From Geodermatophilus sp. DF01-2 (GTDB lineage Bacteria; Actinomycetota; Actinomycetes; Mycobacteriales; Geodermatophilaceae): 38,436 nucleotides of DNA. Location of the stretch: contig NZ_SPQN01000038.1 in assembly GCF_004571065.1 (NCBI RefSeq), positions 1-38,436 on the forward strand. Direction: 5' to 3'. The notes under the pieces are model-generated. The model saw only the letters and a list, made by a program, of their open reading frames with translations, made no database searches and was not told where the DNA came from. The stretch's first letter is position 1; every line of letters begins with the position of its first letter. Positions 3,618-16,458 of the stretch are shown here, piece after piece. Both the position numbers and the translations under genes were made by a program.

Positions 3618-4454
3618 TCAGGGGCGGAAGCGCAGCGCCTGGCCCGGGCGCAGCTGGCCGCAGCGGTCGACGTCGGTGTCGTCGACGTAGCCGATGACCG
3701 GGTAGCCGCCGGTCACCGGCCCGTCGGCGAGGAAGAGCACCGGCTGCCCGGACGGCGGTACCTGCAGCGCGCCGCGGACCATGCCCTCGCTGGCCAGCTC
3801 GCCGGCGCGCGCCCGCTCCAGCGGGACGCCGGACAGCCGCAGCCCGATCCGGTTGCTCTCGCCGGTCACCTCCCACGCGGTGCCGGTCAGCGCGGCCGCC
3901 GCGTCGTCGGAGAACCAGTCGATGCGCGGGCCGGGCATCACCCGCACGGTGACCTCGCCGCCGGGCGGGTCGGGGACCGGCGCGAGGTCCACCCCCGGCA
4001 TCGGACCCGTGGGCGGACCCACGGGCAGCACGTCGCCGGGGGAGAGGACCGGCGGGCCGAGGCCTGCGAGCAGGTCCGTCGAGCGGCTGCCCAGCACCGG
4101 CTCGACGGCGACGCCGCCCCGCACGGCGACGTAGGTGCGCAGCCCGGTGGCCGGCAGGCCCAGCCGCAGCTCGGCCCCGGCCGGCAGCACGACCGGGGCG
4201 TTGTGCGCGGTCGAGCACCGGGCGCCGGTCGTGGCCACGACCAGGTCCGCCGCGGCCCGCAGCGCCAGCCCGCCGAGGGTCACCTCGAGCACCGCGGCGT
4301 CCGTGCCGTTCCCGACCAGCCGGTTGGCCAGCCGGGCGGCGGCGCGGTCGCAGGCGCCCGAGCGGCCGATCCCGAGCGCCCCCTGCCCGGTCCGGCCGGC
4401 GTCCTGCACCGTGGTGAGCGGTCCGGTCGCCAGCACGGTGAGGGTGCGCGTCAC
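3618..4454 (-). CDS. pxpC: 5-oxoprolinase subunit PxpC (KipA / biotin-dependent carboxyltransferase-like)
   Basis: 278 aa, usual length for the family. With PxpA and PxpB it forms the ATP-dependent enzyme that opens 5-oxo-L-proline to glutamate in the cytoplasm. The N-terminus has the diagnostic GPLTTVQDAGRTGQ and GIGRSGACDRAAARLANRLVGN blocks, the middle has YVAVRGGVAVEPVLGSRSTDLLAGLG, and the C-terminus has SNRIGLRLSG and DGPVTGGYPVIGYV, all typical of the KipA/AHS2 fold shared with urea amidolyase. The start is taken as GTG 4452-4454, since it overlaps the pxpB stop as GTGA and gives the family N-terminus; the frame stays open upstream, but that part has no homology. Confidence 0.93.
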   Translation of the reverse strand: MTRTLTVLATGPLTTVQDAGRTGQGALGIGRSGACDRAAARLANRLVGNGTDAAVLEVTLGGLALRAAADLVVATTGARCSTAHNAPVVLPAGAELRLGLPATGLRTYVAVRGGVAVEPVLGSRSTDLLAGLGPPVLSPGDVLPVGPPTGPMPGVDLAPVPDPPGGEVTVRVMPGPRIDWFSDDAAAALTGTAWEVTGESNRIGLRLSGVPLERARAGELASEGMVRGALQVPPSGQPVLFLADGPVTGGYPVIGYVDDTDVDRCGQLRPGQALRFRP

Positions 4455-5828: not shown

Positions 5829-7082
5829 TCAGGCGAACAGCTCGATCACCGGGCGGATGGAGTTGACCGCCAGGTACAGGGTCAGCAGCCAGGCCAGCCA
5901 GCCGACCGCCAGCAGCCAGCGCGGGTACCGGTAGCCGCCCAGCAGGTCGGCGCGGGCGGTCGCGACCCAGAGCAGGACGGCGATGCCGACGGGCAGCAGC
6001 AGCCCGTTGAACGCCCCGGCGAAGATCAGCAGCGTGACCGGCGCGGCGCCGATGAGCAGGAACGCCAGCGTGGTGACGGCGATGAAGGCGACCACGAGCA
6101 GCATGCGGGTGCGGTCGCCGGTGCGCCCGCCGGAGGTCAGGAAGGTGACCGAGGTGTAGGACGCGCCGATGACGCTGGTGATCGACGCCGCCCACAGCAC
6201 CACGCCGAACGCCCGGAGCCCGAACTCGCCCGCGGCCGCCCCGAACGCCGTCGCCGCCTGGTTCCCGGTGCCGAGGTCGGCGCCGGCGGTGACGACGCCG
6301 AGGATGGCGAGGAAGAGCAGCACCCGCATGACGCCGGTGATCACGATGCCGGTGACCGATCCGCGGGTGATGTCGCGGACGTGCTCCGGTCCGGTGACCC
6401 CGGAGTCGATCAGCCGGTGGGCGCCGGCGTAGACGATGTAGCCGCCGATGGTCCCGCCCACCAGCGTGGTGATGGCGAGGAAGGAGACGTCCTCGGGGAG
6501 GACGACGTTGCTCAGCGCGCGACCGACCGGCGGGGTCGAGGTGATCGCGATCCAGGCGGTCAGCCCGATCATCAGCAGGCCGAGGACGACGACGATCCGG
6601 TCGACGGCCACACCTGCCCGCCGGTTGAGGAAGATCCCGATCGCGACGAGCGCCGACAGAGCGCCGCCGATCCGTGGGTCCAGGCCGAACATGGCCTCGG
6701 TGCCCAGGCCCGCGCCGCTGATGTTGCCGATGTTGAACACCAGGCCGCCGAGCACCAGCAGCGCGGCCATGAACCAGCCCAGCCCGGGCAGCAGCGCGTT
6801 GCCCAGCTCCTGGGCGCGCTGCCCGGAGACCCCGATGACCCGCCAGACGTTGAGCTGCAGCGCGATGTCGATGACGATCGAGACCGCGATCGCGAAGGCG
6901 AACGCCGCGCCCAGCTGCACGGTGAACGTCGTGGTCTGGGTGATGAAGCCCGGGCCGATGGCCGAGGTGGCCATGAGGAACATCGCGCCCAGCAGCGTCG
7001 ACCGGGTACCGGCCGACATGCGGCCGGCGGTCGCGGGAGGGGCCGGGTGGTGCGGGGCCGAGTGGTGCGGGTCGTCGGGCAC
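5829..7082 (-). CDS. NRAMP-fold transporter (YcsG-like), without the metal-binding motifs
   Basis: 417 aa, 11 hydrophobic helices with the overall NRAMP pattern (GPGFI entry in helix 1, helix 6 followed by the HRLIDSG loop). Canonical metal transporters have DPGN in helix 1 and MPH in helix 6. Here the helix 1 region reads [12 protein letters not shown] and helix 6 reads YAGAH, so the metal ligands are missing. In Bacillus the NRAMP-like ycsG lies in the pxp locus as well, so transport of 5-oxoproline or an amino acid through the shared LeuT-type fold is the better guess. Start: GTG 7080-7082 with a GGGGA site 6 nt upstream; ATG 7017-7019 is the alternative. The N-terminal 20 residues are rich in His and Pro. 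Confidence 0.82.
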
Positions 7083-7220
7083 GGGGGCTCCCCAGTCGGG
7101 CGTGACCGCGACGCTAGGGCTGTGATGGGCCCTCCGCAACGGCCGTGGGGGGACGGCGGCCGGCGCCGGGACGGGCTGGTGCCGCGGCTCCCGACGGCCG
7201 CCTGCGCGCCGAGTCGCGGA

Positions 7221-7279
7221 GACGGTGTGCGCCGAGGCGGAACTCCAGGACGCAGAAGTCCTCCTCAGCGCACACCGTC
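7221..7279 (-). terminator. Long double hairpin downstream of argG
   Basis: GACGGTGTGCGC (7221-7232) pairs perfectly with GCGCACACCGTC (7268-7279), continued by GAGG/CCTC after one mismatch. The loop contains a second hairpin (AGGAC, 6-nt loop, GTCCT). It lies 18 bp beyond the argG stop and about 140 bp ahead of the NRAMP-like start, and so probably ends argG transcription. There is no U-tract. The size and nesting would also fit a dispersed palindromic repeat. Confidence 0.55.
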
Positions 7280-7296
7280 CGGCGCCCCTGCGAGGC

Positions 7297-9630
<2,334 letters not shown>

Positions 9631-9691: not shown

Positions 9692-12151
9692 ATGCCTCGT
9701 ATCGACCGCATCGCCGAACCATGGGGAACCCGCACCCCGTACGGCCCGGGGGAGACGTGGCCCACGCGGGTCGACTCCCACCTCGCCGACGGGCTGACCG
9801 AGGCCGACGTCGACCGCTGGGTCCAGTCGGCCACGATCCTGCACAGCAACGGCGACGCCCTGGACATCGCGGTGAAGGACGACCGGATCGTCGGTGTCCG
9901 CGGCCGGGCCGTCGACCGGGTCAACCACGGCCGGCTGGGTCCCAAGGACCTCTTCGGCTGGCAGGCCAACAACTCCCCCGAGCGGCTCACCAAGCCGCTC
10001 ATCCGCAAGAGGGGCAAGCTCGTCGAGACCGACTGGGACACCGCGATGAACGCGGTCGCCGGCCGGTGCAAGGAACTGCTCGAGGAGCAGGGCCCCAGTG
10101 CGATCAGCTTCTACACCACCGGCCAGTTGTTCCTCGAGGAGTACTACACCCTGGGCCTGATCGCCCACGGCGGGATCGGCACGAACCACGTCGACGGCAA
10201 CACCCGGCTGTGCACGGCCACCGCGGCCGCGGCGCTCAAGGAGACCTTCGCCTGCGACGGGCAGCCCGGCTCCTACACCGACATCGACTCCGCCGACGTC
10301 ATCGCCCTGTACGGGCACAACATGGCCGAGACCCAGACGGTGCTGTGGACCCGGGTCCTCGACCGGCTGGCCGGGCCCAACCCGCCCAAGGTGGTCTGCG
10401 TCGACCCCCGGGAGACCCCGGTCGCCCGGGCGGCCACGGTGCACCTGGCGCCGCGGCCGGGCACGAACGTGATGCTGATGAACGCGCTCCTGCACGAGAT
10501 CATCGCCCACGGCTGGATCGACCGGGAGTACATCGAGGCCCACACTGTCGGCTTCGCCGAGCTCGAGAAGCAGATGAAGGCCTACACCCCCGAGGTGGCC
10601 GCCGAGGTCTGCGACGTCCCGGCGGAGCGGATCCGGGAGGCGGCCCGCATCCTCGGGCAGGCGGAGCGGTTGCTGTCCACGGTGCTGCAGGGCTTCTACC
10701 AGGCGCACCAGGCCTCGGCCGCCGCCGTCAGCGTCAACAACATCAACGTCATCCGCGGCATGCTGGGCAAGCCCGGCTGCGGGATCCTGCAGATGAACGG
10801 CCAGCCCACCGCGGAGAACACCCGCGAGGCGGGGGCGGACGGCGACCTGCCGGCGTTCCGCAACTGGGAGAACGACGAGCACATCGCGGACCTCGCGCGG
10901 ATCTGGAACATCGACCCGATGGAGATCCCGCACTACTCCCCGCCGACCCACATCATGCAGCAGCTGCGGTACATGGAGGAGGGCACGATCCGCTTCCTGT
11001 ACGTGACGGCCACGAACCCGGCGGTCTCCCTTCCGGAGCTGGCGCGGATCCGGGAGATCCTGGCCCAGGAGCGGCTGTTCCTCGTCGTCCAGGACATCTT
11101 CCTGACCGAGACCGCACAGCTGGCCGACGTCGTCCTGCCCGCCGCGACCTGGGGCGAGAAGACGGGCACCTTCACCAACGTCGACCGCACGGTGCACCTC
11201 TCGGAGAAGGCGGTGGAGCCGCCCGGTGAGGCGAGGTCCGACCTGGACATCCTCATCGACTTCTCCCACCGGCTCGGCCTGGAGGACAAGGACGGGCAGC
11301 CGCTGGTGAAGTGGACCGACGCCGAAGGCGCCTTCGAGGGCTGGAAGGAGTGCAGCCGGGGCCGCCCGTGCGACTACAGCGGCATGAGCTACGACAAGCT
11401 GCGCGGTGGCAGCGGCATCCAGTGGCCGTGCAACGACGAACACCCGGACGGCTCCGAGCGCATCTACGTCGACGGGCAGTTCTGGGCCCACCCCGACTAC
11501 TGCGAGAGCTACGGCCGGGACATGGTCACCGGGGCGCCGGTCGAGGAGACCGAGTACCGGGCGCTCAACCCGACGGGGAGAGCCGTGCTCAAGGCCGCCG
11601 AGTACGTCGCGCCGCACGAGCTGCCCAGCCAGGAGTTCCCCTTCCAGCTCACCACCGGCCGCACCCTGTACCACTTCCACACCCGCACGAAGACCGGCCG
11701 GGCACCGCAGTTGGACGCCGCCGCCCCGGAGGTCTGGGTAGAGATGTCGGCGAGCGACGCCGCGGACCGGAAGTTCGCCGAGGGCGACCTGCTGGAGGTC
11801 AGCACACCGCGGGGCCGGGTGCGGGCCCGGCTGCGGATCAGCGGGATCCGGCCGGGCGTGCTGTTCCTGCCGTTCCACTACGGCTACTGGGACACCAAGG
11901 ACGGCGCCCGGCCGAAGAAGAAGGAGGACAGCCGGGCCGCCAACGAGCTGACCCTCACCGACTGGGACCCGGTGTCCAAGCAGCCGATCTTCAAGACGGC
12001 GGCGGCCCGGGTCGAGCGGGTCGCCCGCAGCAAGGGCACCCCGGCCGCGGCACCCACCACCACCGGGTCGGCGCCGGTCACCGGCGCCGTCCCACCCACC
12101 GTGGGCGGCGACAGCGCCCGCGTCGAGGAGCTCCTGGGAGGTCAGGCGTGA
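9692..12151 (+). CDS. Molybdopterin oxidoreductase (NasA/formate dehydrogenase-like) without the N-terminal Fe-S site
   Basis: 819 aa. The fold is that of the DMSO-reductase family, nearest in pattern to assimilatory nitrate reductases and FdhF-type subunits: GHNMAETQTVLWTRVLD, VVCVDPRETPVARAA, NINVIRGMLGKPGCGILQMNGQPTAENTREAG, ATNPAVSLPELARI, DVVLPAATWGEKTGTFTNVDRTVHLSEKAV, and a C-terminal domain with TTGRTLYHFHTRTKTGRAP. The probable molybdenum ligand is Cys174 in GNTRLCTATA. The usual CxxC...C...C site for [4Fe-4S] is gone: the segment reads QSATILHSNG (residues 45-54), and the last ligand position is Gly83 in GRLGPKD. The final 50 residues are a Pro/Ala/Thr tail. ATG 9692 was chosen from the promoter position; GTG 9674 and ATG 9680 are alternatives. 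The stop overlaps the next start. Confidence 0.85.
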   Translation: MPRIDRIAEPWGTRTPYGPGETWPTRVDSHLADGLTEADVDRWVQSATILHSNGDALDIAVKDDRIVGVRGRAVDRVNHGRLGPKDLFGWQANNSPERLTKPLIRKRGKLVETDWDTAMNAVAGRCKELLEEQGPSAISFYTTGQLFLEEYYTLGLIAHGGIGTNHVDGNTRLCTATAAAALKETFACDGQPGSYTDIDSADVIALYGHNMAETQTVLWTRVLDRLAGPNPPKVVCVDPRETPVARAATVHLAPRPGTNVMLMNALLHEIIAHGWIDREYIEAHTVGFAELEKQMKAYTPEVAAEVCDVPAERIREAARILGQAERLLSTVLQGFYQAHQASAAAVSVNNINVIRGMLGKPGCGILQMNGQPTAENTREAGADGDLPAFRNWENDEHIADLARIWNIDPMEIPHYSPPTHIMQQLRYMEEGTIRFLYVTATNPAVSLPELARIREILAQERLFLVVQDIFLTETAQLADVVLPAATWGEKTGTFTNVDRTVHLSEKAVEPPGEARSDLDILIDFSHRLGLEDKDGQPLVKWTDAEGAFEGWKECSRGRPCDYSGMSYDKLRGGSGIQWPCNDEHPDGSERIYVDGQFWAHPDYCESYGRDMVTGAPVEETEYRALNPTGRAVLKAAEYVAPHELPSQEFPFQLTTGRTLYHFHTRTKTGRAPQLDAAAPEVWVEMSASDAADRKFAEGDLLEVSTPRGRVRARLRISGIRPGVLFLPFHYGYWDTKDGARPKKKEDSRAANELTLTDWDPVSKQPIFKTAAARVERVARSKGTPAAAPTTTGSAPVTGAVPPTVGGDSARVEELLGGQA

Positions 12152-12630
12152 AGCTCGACATGGCGATCGAAGAACTGCACCGGTCGGAGAACCACCTGGT
12201 CACCGTGCTGATGTCGATGTCGGACAAGCACAAGGCCGACCACGAGGTCTTCTACGTCACCCGGGACATGGCCAAGTGGTCCCGTGAGCACGTGGCCGAG
12301 CTCGCCAGGATCGGACGGGACTTCGGGCTCGACCTGGACCCGGAGGCCTCGGAGGACCCGGGCCTGCTCGCCGGCATGAAGCAGCGGACGTCCGACCTGC
12401 TGGGACGGCGGTCGACACCCGGCCTGCTGCTGCTGGCCGACCTGCGCCACCTCTACCGCGAGGCGGCCGGCACCTCCCTGGACTGGGAGATCCTGGCCCA
12501 GTCCGCGCAGGGCGCCAAGGAACAGGAGCTGCTCGACGTGGCCGAGAAGTGCCACCCGGAGTCGCTCCGTCAGGCGCGGTGGGCCAACGCCCACCTCAAG
12601 GTGGCCTCACCGCAGGTGATCGCGAGCTGA
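12148..12630 (+). CDS. Helical partner protein of the molybdopterin oxidoreductase
   Basis: 160 aa, soluble, almost wholly helical, with no recognised family. GTG 12148 overlaps the upstream stop as GTGA, so it is translated with the oxidoreductase and is probably a partner. The first two helices carry regularly spaced acids and histidines (Glu8, Glu9, His11, Glu14, His16; His28, His32, Glu33; Glu47, His48, Glu51) that look like a ferritin- or hemerythrin-type four-helix bundle able to hold metal, but the spacing does not match a canonical diiron signature. Helix 3 starts near residue 85 (PGLLLLADLRHLYREAAG) and helix 4 near 118. Either an electron-transfer partner or a maturation chaperone would fit. 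Confidence 0.7.
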   Translation: MKLDMAIEELHRSENHLVTVLMSMSDKHKADHEVFYVTRDMAKWSREHVAELARIGRDFGLDLDPEASEDPGLLAGMKQRTSDLLGRRSTPGLLLLADLRHLYREAAGTSLDWEILAQSAQGAKEQELLDVAEKCHPESLRQARWANAHLKVASPQVIAS

Positions 12631-12849: not shown

Positions 12850-13362
12850 ATGGACGCCGAGGTCACCCTCACGGTCGACGGCACGGCCCACCGCCTCACG
12901 GTCGACACCCGCACCACGCTGCTGGACGCCCTCCGGGAACGGCTGGGCAACACCAGTCCGAAGAAGGGCTGCGACCACGGCCAGTGCGGCGCGTGCACGG
13001 TCCTCCTGGACGGCAAGCGGGCGCTCTCCTGCCTCGCGCTGGCGGTTGCCCACGACGGCGCGGAGATCATCACTGCCGACGGCCTTGCGGCGGACGGCGA
13101 GCTGCACCCGGTGCAGCAGGCCTTCCTCGACCGGGACGCCTTCCAGTGCGGCTACTGCACCCCCGGGCAGATCTGCTCGGCGGTCGGCGTCCTGGACGAG
13201 GTGCGGCGCGGCTGGCCCAGCCACGCCGGCCCGGACCTCACCGCCGACCCGGAACTCAGCCACGACGAGGTCGCCGAGCGCATGAGCGGGAACCTGTGCC
13301 GCTGCGGCGCCTACGTGAACATCGTCCCGGCGGTCCAGCAGGCGGGGGGTGGCCAGGCGTGA
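12850..13362 (+). CDS. Xanthine dehydrogenase/aldehyde oxidoreductase family, 2Fe-2S subunit (PaoA-like)
   Basis: 170 aa. Small electron-transfer subunit of a molybdenum hydroxylase. The plant-type [2Fe-2S] ligands are Cys41, Cys46 and Cys49 in GCDHGQCGACTV plus Cys61. The second, alpha-helical [2Fe-2S] site uses Cys100 and Cys103 in CGYCTPGQ and Cys150 and Cys152 in CRCGAY. All eight ligands are present. Unlike E. coli PaoA there is no twin-arginine signal, so the enzyme should stay in the cytoplasm. The start ATG lies after a GAGGGGC site. It is first in a three-gene operon and overlaps the next gene by GTGA. Confidence 0.93.
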   Translation: MDAEVTLTVDGTAHRLTVDTRTTLLDALRERLGNTSPKKGCDHGQCGACTVLLDGKRALSCLALAVAHDGAEIITADGLAADGELHPVQQAFLDRDAFQCGYCTPGQICSAVGVLDEVRRGWPSHAGPDLTADPELSHDEVAERMSGNLCRCGAYVNIVPAVQQAGGGQA

Positions 13363-14366
13363 AGCCGTTCGCCTACGCCCGTCCGGCGGACGTCGCCGAG
13401 GCGGTACGGGACGTCGCCGCCGAGCCGACCGCCGTCTTCCTCGGCGGCGGCACCAACCTGGTCGACCACCTCAAGCTCGGCATCGTCCGCCCGGACCTGG
13501 TCGTCGACGTCCGCACGCTCACCTCGCGCAGCATCGACGACCTCCAGGACGGCGGACTGCGGGTCGGCGCCGCGGTGACCAACAGCGAGCTGGCCGCCGA
13601 CCGGCGGGTCCGCGAGCGGTACCCGGTGCTGGCCCAGGCGCTGCTGGCCGGTGCCACCGGTCAGCTGCGCAACCTGGCCACCACCGGCGGCAATCCGCTG
13701 CAGCGCACCCGCTGCGTCTACTTCCAGGACGCCAGCACCGCCTGCAACAAGCGCGAGCCGGGGACGGGCTGCTCGGCGGTCGGCGGCTACACCCGCTACC
13801 ACGCGGTCCTCGGCGTCCCGGCGGCGCTGCCCGACCCGACGGCGCCCGAGACGTGCATCGCCACGCACCCCTCCGACATGGCCGTGGCGCTGGCCGCGCT
13901 GGACGCGCAGGTGCAGGTGCTCGGCCCGGCCGGTGCGCGCACCGTCCCGTTCGTAGATCTGCACCGGCTGCCCGGCGAGGACCCCTCCCGGGACACGGTG
14001 CTGGAGCACGGTGAGCTGATCACCGCGATCGACCTGCCGCCGCTGCCGGCCGGCGCCCGCTCGGCCTACCGCAAGGTCCGCGACCGGGCCTCCTACGCCT
14101 TCGCCCTGGTGTCGGTGGCCGCGGTCGCGAGCGGGAACGGCGATGTCCGGCTCGCCCTGGGCGGGGTCGCGCACAAGCCGTGGCGCGCCACCCGGGCCGA
14201 GGGTGTGCTGCGCGGCGGGCCGCTGACCGAGGACACCGTGCGCGCCGCGATGGCGGCCGAGCTGGCCGCCGCCCAGCCGCAACCGGGGGTCGACAGCGGC
14301 AACGGCTTCAAGATCCCGCTCGTGACACGCACGGTCGTGGCGACCCTGCGCGACCTGGAGGCCTGA
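13359..14366 (+). CDS. Xanthine dehydrogenase family FAD-binding subunit (PaoB-like)
   Basis: 335 aa. Carries FAD between the 2Fe-2S and the molybdenum subunits. The FAD-binding FLGGGTNLVDHLKLG (residues 28-42) and the ATTGGNPLQRTRC block are clear. It belongs to the PaoB/YagS branch, because the loop after that block has the inserted cysteines (Cys119, Cys129 in CNKREPGTGC, Cys138, and a likely fourth at Cys166) that hold an additional [4Fe-4S] cluster in PaoB. The start GTG 13359-13361 overlaps the stop of the 2Fe-2S subunit. The frame is open far upstream, but that part is the other gene in a second frame. Confidence 0.92.
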   Translation: MKPFAYARPADVAEAVRDVAAEPTAVFLGGGTNLVDHLKLGIVRPDLVVDVRTLTSRSIDDLQDGGLRVGAAVTNSELAADRRVRERYPVLAQALLAGATGQLRNLATTGGNPLQRTRCVYFQDASTACNKREPGTGCSAVGGYTRYHAVLGVPAALPDPTAPETCIATHPSDMAVALAALDAQVQVLGPAGARTVPFVDLHRLPGEDPSRDTVLEHGELITAIDLPPLPAGARSAYRKVRDRASYAFALVSVAAVASGNGDVRLALGGVAHKPWRATRAEGVLRGGPLTEDTVRAAMAAELAAAQPQPGVDSGNGFKIPLVTRTVVATLRDLEA

Positions 14367-14367
14367 C

Positions 14368-16458
14368 ATGACCGATCTGCTCGAACCCCGGGCCATCGGC
14401 CGGGACCTCGTCCGGCGCGACGGCGTGGCCAAGGTGCGCGGCACCGCGACCTACGCCTACGAGACGCCGGTCGAGCGACCCGCCTACGCCCACCCCGTCC
14501 AGGCCACCGTCGCTCGGGGCCGGGTCACCGCCATGGACACCGCGACCGCCGAGGGGCTGGACGGGGTGCTCGCGGTCCTCACGCCGTCCACCGCCGAACG
14601 GCTGGCCTCCACGGAGGACCGCGAGTTCGCCGTCCTGCAGTCCGACGAGGTCGCCTTCCGCGGTCAGCTGATCGGCGCCGTGGTCGCCGAGACCTCCGAG
14701 CTGGCCCGCCAGGCCGCCGACTCGATCCGGGTCACCTACGCCGAGCAGTCGCACGACACCGAGCTGTCCGCCGACCGGGACGACCTGTACGCCCCCGGGA
14801 AGGTCAACGCCGGCCACGAGACGGACACCAGCGAGGGGGACGTCGCCGCGGCCATGGCCTCCGCCGACGTGACGATCGAGCAGACCTACACCACGGCGAT
14901 GTACCACAACAACCCGCTGGAGCCGCACAGCACGACGGCGCTCTGGGACCCCGCGGGCGACGGGCACCTCACCCTGTGGGACTCGACCCAGGGCGTGCAC
15001 CCCGACCGGGCTGCCGTGTGCGAGGTCTTCGGGCTGGCGCAGGAGCAGGTTCGGGTGATCTGCCCCTACGTCGGCGGGGGGTTCGGCTCGAAGGGGACCC
15101 CGCACGCGCACGTGATGCTCGCCGCGATGGCGGCGCGGGCGCTGCCGGGCCGCCCGGTCAAGCTGGCGCTGACCCGCCAGCAGATGTTCTTCCTGGCCGG
15201 CTACCGCACGCCCACGATCCAGCGGATGCAGCTGGCTGCCGACCGCGACGGCCGGCTGTCGGCGGTCGCGATCGACGTGGTCGTGCAGACGTCGCGGATC
15301 AAGGAGTTCGCGGAGCAGGCCGGCGTCCCGGCGCGGATGATGTACGCCGCACCCAACCGGCGCAGCACCCACCGGGTGGCCGCGCTCGACGTGCCGGTGC
15401 CCTCGTGGATGCGCGCGCCGGGGGAGTGCCCGGGCATGTTCGGCCCCGAGGTGGCGCTCGACGAGCTGGCCGAGGAACTGGGCATCGACCCGATCGAGCT
15501 GCGCATCCGCAACGAGCCCGAGGTCGACCCGGACACCGGGAAGCCGTGGTCGAGCCGGCACCTGGTGGAGTGCCTGCGCGAGGGCGCCGAGCGCTTCGGC
15601 TGGGCCGACCGCCCGCCAGCCCGGCACCGCGACGGGAACTGGCTGGTGGGCACCGGCGTAGCCGCCTCGGTCTACCCCACCATGCGGCAGGCCCGGTCGA
15701 CCGCGAACCTGCGCTACGAGGACGGTCGCTACGTCGCCGAGATCGGCGCGGCCGACCTCGGCACCGGGGCGTGGACGGTGCTGCCCCAGATCACCGCCGA
15801 CGCTCTCGGTGTCGACGTCGCCGACGTGGACGTGCGGATCGGGGACACCGAGTACCCGATCGCCTCGGTCGCCGGCGGGTCGTCGGGCACCAACACGTGG
15901 GGCTCGGCGCTGGTCGTGGCCGCCCGCGCGTTCCGGGAGAAGTTCGGCGGCTCGCCGTCCGACGGCGACGAGGTCGCCGGCGACGTCGACCAGGCCGCGC
16001 AGGACGAGGACCACGCGGCCTACGCGTTCGGTGCCCAGTTCGTCGAGGCCCGGGTGCACGCCGACACCGGTGAGATCCGGGTGCCGCGGCTGCTCGGCGT
16101 CTTCGCCGCCGGCCGGATCGTCAACCCCCGCACCGCCCGCTCGCAGTTCGTCGGTGGGATGACCATGGGGCTGTCCATGGCGCTGCACGAGAACAGCGTC
16201 TGGGACCCGCAGGTGGGCCAGGTGGCCAACCACGACCTCGCCGAGTACCACGTCACGGTCAACGCCGACGTCGGCGACGTGCAGGCCCACTGGCTCGACG
16301 AGCACGACCCCTTCGTCAACGCGATGGGGTCCAAGGGCATCGGCGAGATCGGGATCGTCGGCACGGCCGCGGCCGTCGTCAACGCCGTCCACCGGGCCAC
16401 CGGCGTCCGGGTGCGGCACCTCCCGGTGACCCTCGACAAGCTGCTGCCCGGCCTGTGA
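14368..16458 (+). CDS. Xanthine dehydrogenase family molybdopterin-binding subunit (PaoC-like)
   Basis: 696 aa, catalytic subunit. It begins with the usual GRDLVRRDGVAKVRGTATYAYE block, has HNNPLEPHSTTALWD (substrate channel), the ICPYVGGGFGSKG molybdopterin loop, WMRAPGECPGMFGPEVALDELA, AGGSSGTNTWGSA, and ends with GSKGIGEIGIVGTAAAVVNAV, in which Glu660 is the expected catalytic glutamate. As in PaoC, the arginine-proline-containing MRAPGE loop is that of aldehyde oxidoreductases rather than of xanthine dehydrogenase proper, so aromatic or aliphatic aldehydes are likely substrates. ATG 14368 follows the preceding stop by one base. No PaoD/XdhC-type maturation gene is seen in this window. Confidence 0.93.
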   Translation: MTDLLEPRAIGRDLVRRDGVAKVRGTATYAYETPVERPAYAHPVQATVARGRVTAMDTATAEGLDGVLAVLTPSTAERLASTEDREFAVLQSDEVAFRGQLIGAVVAETSELARQAADSIRVTYAEQSHDTELSADRDDLYAPGKVNAGHETDTSEGDVAAAMASADVTIEQTYTTAMYHNNPLEPHSTTALWDPAGDGHLTLWDSTQGVHPDRAAVCEVFGLAQEQVRVICPYVGGGFGSKGTPHAHVMLAAMAARALPGRPVKLALTRQQMFFLAGYRTPTIQRMQLAADRDGRLSAVAIDVVVQTSRIKEFAEQAGVPARMMYAAPNRRSTHRVAALDVPVPSWMRAPGECPGMFGPEVALDELAEELGIDPIELRIRNEPEVDPDTGKPWSSRHLVECLREGAERFGWADRPPARHRDGNWLVGTGVAASVYPTMRQARSTANLRYEDGRYVAEIGAADLGTGAWTVLPQITADALGVDVADVDVRIGDTEYPIASVAGGSSGTNTWGSALVVAARAFREKFGGSPSDGDEVAGDVDQAAQDEDHAAYAFGAQFVEARVHADTGEIRVPRLLGVFAAGRIVNPRTARSQFVGGMTMGLSMALHENSVWDPQVGQVANHDLAEYHVTVNADVGDVQAHWLDEHDPFVNAMGSKGIGEIGIVGTAAAVVNAVHRATGVRVRHLPVTLDKLLPGL

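Follow-up and report, generated by a model that had tools for sequence, protein, structure and literature searches.

Among the enzymes of the MopB, or dimethyl sulfoxide (DMSO) reductase, superfamily, TorA and BisC are grouped with DorA and have no N-terminal iron-sulfur cluster, and in the DMSO and trimethylamine N-oxide (TMAO) reductases, which lack a cluster, electrons are donated directly to the molybdenum (Mo). A 2023 survey of the superfamily records several members without the N-terminal cluster, gives as a named example DorA, in which the Mo ligand is a serine, and marks one family in a tree legend as having lost the cluster (PMC10100899). The subject of this report is a predicted NapA-fold molybdopterin oxidoreductase encoded, together with a small partner protein, in a 38,436-nucleotide stretch of DNA from Geodermatophilus sp. 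DF01-2 (contig NZ_SPQN01000038.1, positions 1 to 38,436), the whole of which is referred to below as the window. Like DorA, this enzyme is a MopB protein without the N-terminal cluster; unlike the DorA, TorA and BisC group, it does not have a Ser as Mo ligand, the ligand being Cys174, and the loss of the cluster therefore looks like an independent event in the Cys-ligand branch of nitrate reductases and formate dehydrogenases.

Several described enzymes invite comparison. NapA of Desulfovibrio desulfuricans (2nap) differs from the window enzyme, which has no cluster cysteines, carries Thr rather than Met after the Mo ligand, shows no export signal by eye, and is accompanied by a partner predicted to be ferritin-like. 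NasC, NasA and NarB share with the window enzyme the MopB architecture and a probably cytoplasmic location, the difference being that the cluster cysteines are absent from the latter. The "nitrate reductases" encoded on plasmids of Deinococcus, Hymenobacter, Halomonas and Curtobacterium belong to the same family, with the same Mo-site residues and the same partner, but keep a CxxCxxxC motif, only the fourth Cys being replaced by Gly (3-Cys enzymes hereafter); with that of locus L044, an actinobacterial 3-Cys enzyme, they share 54-62% identity. No description of a cluster-less enzyme-partner system was found in the open-access literature, in agreement with an earlier reading of the DNA letters alone (the sequence-only reading), whose author knew of no characterised enzyme of this build. 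Mycobacterium smegmatis MSMEG_6816 (720 amino acids) and MSMEG_2237, singled out in the literature for a domain architecture shared with NarB (PMC7816997, PMC3662644, PMC4222082), could not be tied to the family as characterised members, and their phenotypes were not used. Cyanobacterial NarM, a small protein on which NarB activity depends, was also considered as a possible counterpart of the partner.

A predicted NapA-fold enzyme without cluster cysteines

Matches over the Pfam cut-offs to PF00384 (204 bits) and PF01568 (97 bits), together with an aligned Mo-ligand column, assign the enzyme to the MopB superfamily and uphold the NapA/formate dehydrogenase-type fold that had been predicted for it. 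The Pfam score for PF04879, the Fe4S4 domain, is 13.7 bits, short of the 22.7 cut-off, and the enzyme stays below the cut-offs of the NapA equivalog TIGR01706 (316 bits versus 930.55), the NasC equivalog NF047855 (415 versus 1100) and the formate dehydrogenase model TIGR01591 (458.7 versus 666.25). At least 7957 relatives were found among the 7999 candidates scored in a protein database search; among the 120 matches listed, the organisms, where named, are mostly Blastococcus, Geodermatophilus and Modestobacter, and the labels include "nitrate reductase", "molybdopterin oxidoreductase" and "anaerobic selenocysteine-containing dehydrogenase".

Alignment with relatives that have all four cluster cysteines (4-Cys enzymes) places T48, H51, D55 and G83 at the ligand positions and retains C174 as Mo ligand, as the sequence-only reading had held (Table 1). 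The alignment comprised the enzymes of 169 loci (80 loci from genomes of named species, 13 plasmid records including one outgroup, the window, and 75 further loci of actinobacterial genomes) and 20 database proteins. The motif reads CCCC at 8 loci, CCCG at 15 and (S/T/A)-H-D-(G/D/E) at 138, the last being the cluster-less loci, which include the window and are not de-duplicated by species; five degenerate loci with S-G-(D/E)-D (G51) and three with an unreadable motif (L115, L142, L247) were counted apart. H51, D55, K85, D86, C174, T175 and R378 are present at all 138 cluster-less loci, and C174, T175 and R378 are also identical at all 15 3-Cys loci; the Mo-site residues are unchanged between the two forms. 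Since 115 of the best 120 enzyme matches, the window's own copy included, have no Cys in the first 105 residues, the loss is more than chance or sequencing error, and each of the other five has a single Cys there, outside the motif.

When the 138 cluster-less enzymes are compared with a 3-Cys group of 35, which includes the 20 database proteins, just three of the 819 columns, 51, 55 and 86, prove to be fixed (>93% in both groups) yet different. Columns 51 and 55 differ partly through the definition of the groups, whereas column 86 does not, and the constancy of His and Asp as the replacements at 51 and 55 is independent of that definition. By this measure of fixed columns, the change appears confined to the surroundings of the old cluster, and the lysine matching K85 presumably sits between cluster and pterin in NapA. 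R378, which we take to be the counterpart of active-site Arg354 in D. desulfuricans NapA, is Arg in six of the eight 4-Cys rows. In formate dehydrogenases, roles are assigned to the His after the Mo ligand and to the Arg before GQN; the formate dehydrogenase-like rows L256 and L257 have these residues, whereas the window enzyme has T175 and N369. As aligned, the active site is Nap-like in Arg378 but, in Thr175, unlike both the nitrate-reductase-like and the formate-dehydrogenase-like rows compared.

Table 1. Coordinates of the enzyme, its partner, ligand-position codons and other genes referred to in the text
Feature	Location	Position	Strand
Predicted NapA-fold molybdopterin oxidoreductase without N-terminal cluster cysteines, 819 amino acids	window	9692..12151	+
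Codon of T48, at cluster-ligand position 1; 3-Cys and 4-Cys relatives have Cys here	window	9833..9835	+
Codon of H51, at cluster-ligand position 2; His at 138/138 cluster-less loci	window	9842..9844	+
Codon of D55, at cluster-ligand position 3; Asp at 138/138 cluster-less loci	window	9854..9856	+
Codon of G83, at cluster-ligand position 4; Gly likewise at 15/15 3-Cys loci	window	9938..9940	+
Codon of D86, adjoins conserved K85; Asp at 138/138 cluster-less loci, Gly at 15/15 3-Cys loci	window	9947..9949	+
Codon of C174, the aligned Mo ligand; T175 comes next	window	10211..10213	+
Partner, 160 amino acids, GTG start, predicted ferritin-like four-helix bundle	window	12148..12630	+
Four-base overlap GTGA, partner start and enzyme stop	window	12148..12151	+
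D-glutamate cyclase family gene (PF07286), ends 88 bases upstream of enzyme	window	8806-9603	same as enzyme
Set of CoxS-CoxM-CoxL type, directly downstream; a Mo enzyme of the xanthine dehydrogenase family	window	12850-16458	
Seemingly intact partner gene without MopB enzyme nearby	L293	4908-5354	
Seemingly intact partner gene without MopB enzyme nearby	L294	6019-6480	
Seemingly intact partner gene without MopB enzyme nearby	L300	5241-5690	

Five relatives from a single genus (L231-L235; genomes G411, G569, G368, G431 and G309) are about 50% identical and keep the partner. H51 and R378 are lost in all five and the Mo-ligand Cys in three; in the two that were displayed, the HTRTKTG stretch is lost and the partner carries an insert. 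These are possibly pseudo-enzymes retained as scaffolds.

Probable order of cysteine loss

The cluster-less enzymes form one clade, with a support of 96 in the Shimodaira-Hasegawa-like approximate likelihood ratio test, in both of two maximum-likelihood trees rooted on the 4-Cys rows. Both trees were quick and made without bootstrap, from the 48 and 47 rows that were left after filtering at 74% identity and exclusion of broken genes; the second used a mixture model and omitted L150. The clade sits beside the actinobacterial 3-Cys enzymes, those of Deinococcus, Hymenobacter and Halomonas lying further out, and a long-branch warning attaches to the 4-Cys rows and to the Staphylococcus 3-Cys row, whose position is unsure. 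Because the cluster-less clade adjoins 3-Cys relatives with Gly in place of the fourth Cys, the cluster probably eroded from four to three to no cysteines; on the cheapest reading, an ancestor would have exchanged the fourth Cys for Gly first, the remaining three being lost later, once. The Fe4S4 Pfam match grades in parallel among six relatives, from 56-67 bits in two 4-Cys enzymes to 35-41 in three 3-Cys enzymes and none in one early cluster-less enzyme. With the cluster likely lost in steps, the path of electrons to the metal is probably an unusual one.

A predicted ferritin-like partner

The partner gene adjoins the enzyme gene at 136 of 138 cluster-less, 5 of 5 degenerate, 12 of 15 3-Cys and none of 8 4-Cys loci, the cluster-less exceptions being L219 and L250, the latter at a contig end. 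Its open reading frame does overlap the enzyme's stop codon, as first described, and a start/stop overlap recurs at 71 of the 80 named-species loci, the partner start codons having been picked by script. Furthermore, a fused 942-amino-acid enzyme of Halomonas KO116 has the partner as its C-terminal domain. L230 was considered as a second fusion and rejected, as unread bases (X) break the enzyme frame. These arrangements suit a partner working together with the enzyme, as it would have done already before the last three cysteines were lost; since it is already present at 12 of 15 3-Cys loci and fused in Halomonas, it was not recruited to replace the cluster.

The named-species loci were picked by similarity; 345 genomes drawn from the class make a less biased sample. 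At thresholds of E 1e-180 for the enzyme and E 1e-5 for the partner, the enzyme was found in 56 genomes, the partner in 62 and both in 54; of the eight partner-only genomes, contig ends interrupt the enzyme in one, fragments of it occur in two, and in two more the partner is broken or partial and the enzyme missing; the last three have a partner that looks intact. Among 296 genomes drawn from the phylum, 19 gave a partner match; 17 of these matches adjoin an enzyme, and two (L025, L026) are fragments without one. Partner relatives numbered 1043 among 1194 candidates in the protein database, and none was confirmed on viral contigs.

The partner is predicted to be a ferritin-like four-helix bundle from a model built with 72 of 81 rows, whose mean predicted local distance difference test score (92.2) agrees with the helical character first ascribed to it; "Glu/His-rich" holds in moderation, with 14 Glu and 8 His among 160 residues. 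The window's partner has no Pfam or NCBIfam match, and DUF892 is matched, weakly (best E 1e-4), by 5 of 81 partner relatives. The modelled fold is that of DUF892 proteins (YciE/YciF, XCC3681) and other ferritin-like proteins, but their ligand set is not clearly kept: in a weak profile alignment to DUF892 (probability 69 only), E14 falls on the conserved helix-A Glu and M41 on the helix-B His, and the model suggests no clear di-metal site.

The history of the partner can be followed through eight loci on early cluster-less branches (families f19 and f22, of another class of the phylum). Compared with 11 3-Cys loci (L206 omitted from the partner means), average identity is 49% for their partners and 63.7% for their enzymes; compared with 127 later cluster-less loci, it is 30.5% and 65.9%. 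The partner tree separates two partner types with a support of 99, and D40, R100, E114 and H136 are common (90 to 98%) in the later cluster-less partners. Tree and identities together therefore indicate that the cluster was lost without a visible change of partner type and that strong remodelling came afterwards.

Electron supply and alternative explanations

We tentatively favor a scheme in which this NapA-fold Mo enzyme without a cluster and its 160-amino-acid partner likely operate as one cytoplasmic complex, with no internal iron-sulfur relay for the electrons that would pass between Mo and an external donor. H51, D55 and D86 would occupy the old cluster pocket, the reaction would be unchanged, probably the reduction of nitrate or a similar oxyanion, and the ferritin-like partner would be a structural or maturation subunit, not an electron carrier. 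Besides the partner, no cluster of neighboring open reading frames, these clusters being unannotated, is common to more than 26 of 152 loci, and positions are scattered; with neither a cluster nor a common neighbor other than the partner, the simplest reading is that the donor reaches Mo directly, as in the DMSO and TMAO reductases. A hint of a nitrate/nitrite role comes from the neighbors of related loci: an HPP gene shares the enzyme's strand and is no more than 1.4 kb from the enzyme's end at 7 of 15 3-Cys loci, and no more than 1.8 kb from it at six early cluster-less loci, one of which (L246) has a broken enzyme gene. Of the five plasmid 3-Cys loci L138-L141 and L144, four have an HPP gene, and a formate/nitrite transporter gene is present at one 3-Cys locus.

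Several observations weigh against this scheme. No HPP gene was found beside the main cluster-less group (tblastn, E 1e-6), and Met follows the Mo-ligand Cys in six of eight 4-Cys rows, where the window enzyme has T175. The window's genome encodes its own NarG and has no NirB over the family cut-off, making a role in nitrate assimilation in this organism doubtful. As to the complex, 3 of the 15 3-Cys loci have no partner, and in L293, L294 and L300 the partner gene looks intact and the 10 kb examined contain no enzyme, so that enzyme and partner are not inseparable. The sequence-only reading had asked whether Cys loss and partner always co-occur. Loss is accompanied by the partner at 136 of 138 loci, most 3-Cys loci also have it, and strict co-occurrence fails in the 345-genome draw, where 3 of the 62 genomes with the partner have a seemingly intact one and no nearby enzyme, and 2 of the 56 with the enzyme have no partner.

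It is conceivable, though somewhat unlikely, that the partner is not a subunit but a chaperone devoted to maturation, as NarJ and TorD are, the enzyme working alone. Like chaperones of that type, the partner is a small helical protein, translationally coupled and lacking a clear metal site; fusion to the enzyme's C-terminus in Halomonas, the predicted ferritin-like fold and the absence of a Pfam match to any chaperone family for the window's partner or any of 81 members argue against one. No chaperone fold appears among the 50 folds listed for the partner model, which proves nothing either way. The main alternative to direct donation is that no outside electrons are needed, Mo catalyzing a hydration, a transhydroxylation or an oxo transfer between two small substrates. 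The lack of a relay and of a widely shared neighbor other than the partner would suit such chemistry, and acetylene hydratase and pyrogallol transhydroxylase appear as superfamily members of this kind in a table of the survey (PMC10100899); with the Nap-like Arg378 and the HPP neighbors of 3-Cys relatives suggesting oxyanion reduction, we regard it as unlikely.

Two further explanations invoke a replacement metal. The old cluster pocket might have become a mononuclear His-Asp-Asp site formed by H51, D55 and D86, the ferritin-like subunit then being remodelled, which seems quite unlikely. A low probability also attaches to the original suggestion that the partner is a replacement electron carrier, a metal in its helical bundle feeding the Mo site. 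The partner is older than the loss, early cluster-less partners are still of the 3-Cys type, and the fold has no clear di-metal ligand set, M41 standing, in the weak alignment, where DUF892 has its helix-B His. In a reduced form of the carrier idea, the later remodelling of the partner could be compensation for the loss of the cluster. That the family is a decaying pseudo-enzyme is very improbable, for the losses of H51 and R378, and in three cases of C174, concern five loci of one genus, and C174, T175, K85 and R378 are unchanged at the 138 other cluster-less loci.

Genes around the pair

The CoxS-CoxM-CoxL type set downstream of the window's pair (Table 1) is in the same position only in L059 among the loci searched; at E 1e-20, L059, L087 and, more distantly, L237 are the only ones with CoxS and CoxM neighbors, L059 and L087 having CoxL as well, and the D-glutamate cyclase gene is in place only in L059. 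A gene for a DUF326 four-helix-bundle copper-binding protein lies about 9 kb or less from the enzyme, on either side and strand, at 21 of 169 loci (L058 and L147, positions 3913-4314, among them), a proximity that may be chance in these genomes. The partner gene of L293 is flanked by genes for an aldehyde dehydrogenase and for a Mo enzyme of the xanthine dehydrogenase family. On a plasmid of Gloeothece PCC 7822 (L142, positions 6475-9600), both the 3-Cys enzyme and the partner are frame-broken, and the annotated HPP gene is still open.

Implications

For the genes of this family, "nitrate reductase" and "selenocysteine-containing dehydrogenase" are unproven names, and annotation calls for caution. 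Within the Cys-ligand branch, the family offers extant intermediates with four, three and no cysteines, together with fixed replacements. If the loss was indeed independent, the need for the cluster in catalysis would be directly testable by comparing close relatives.
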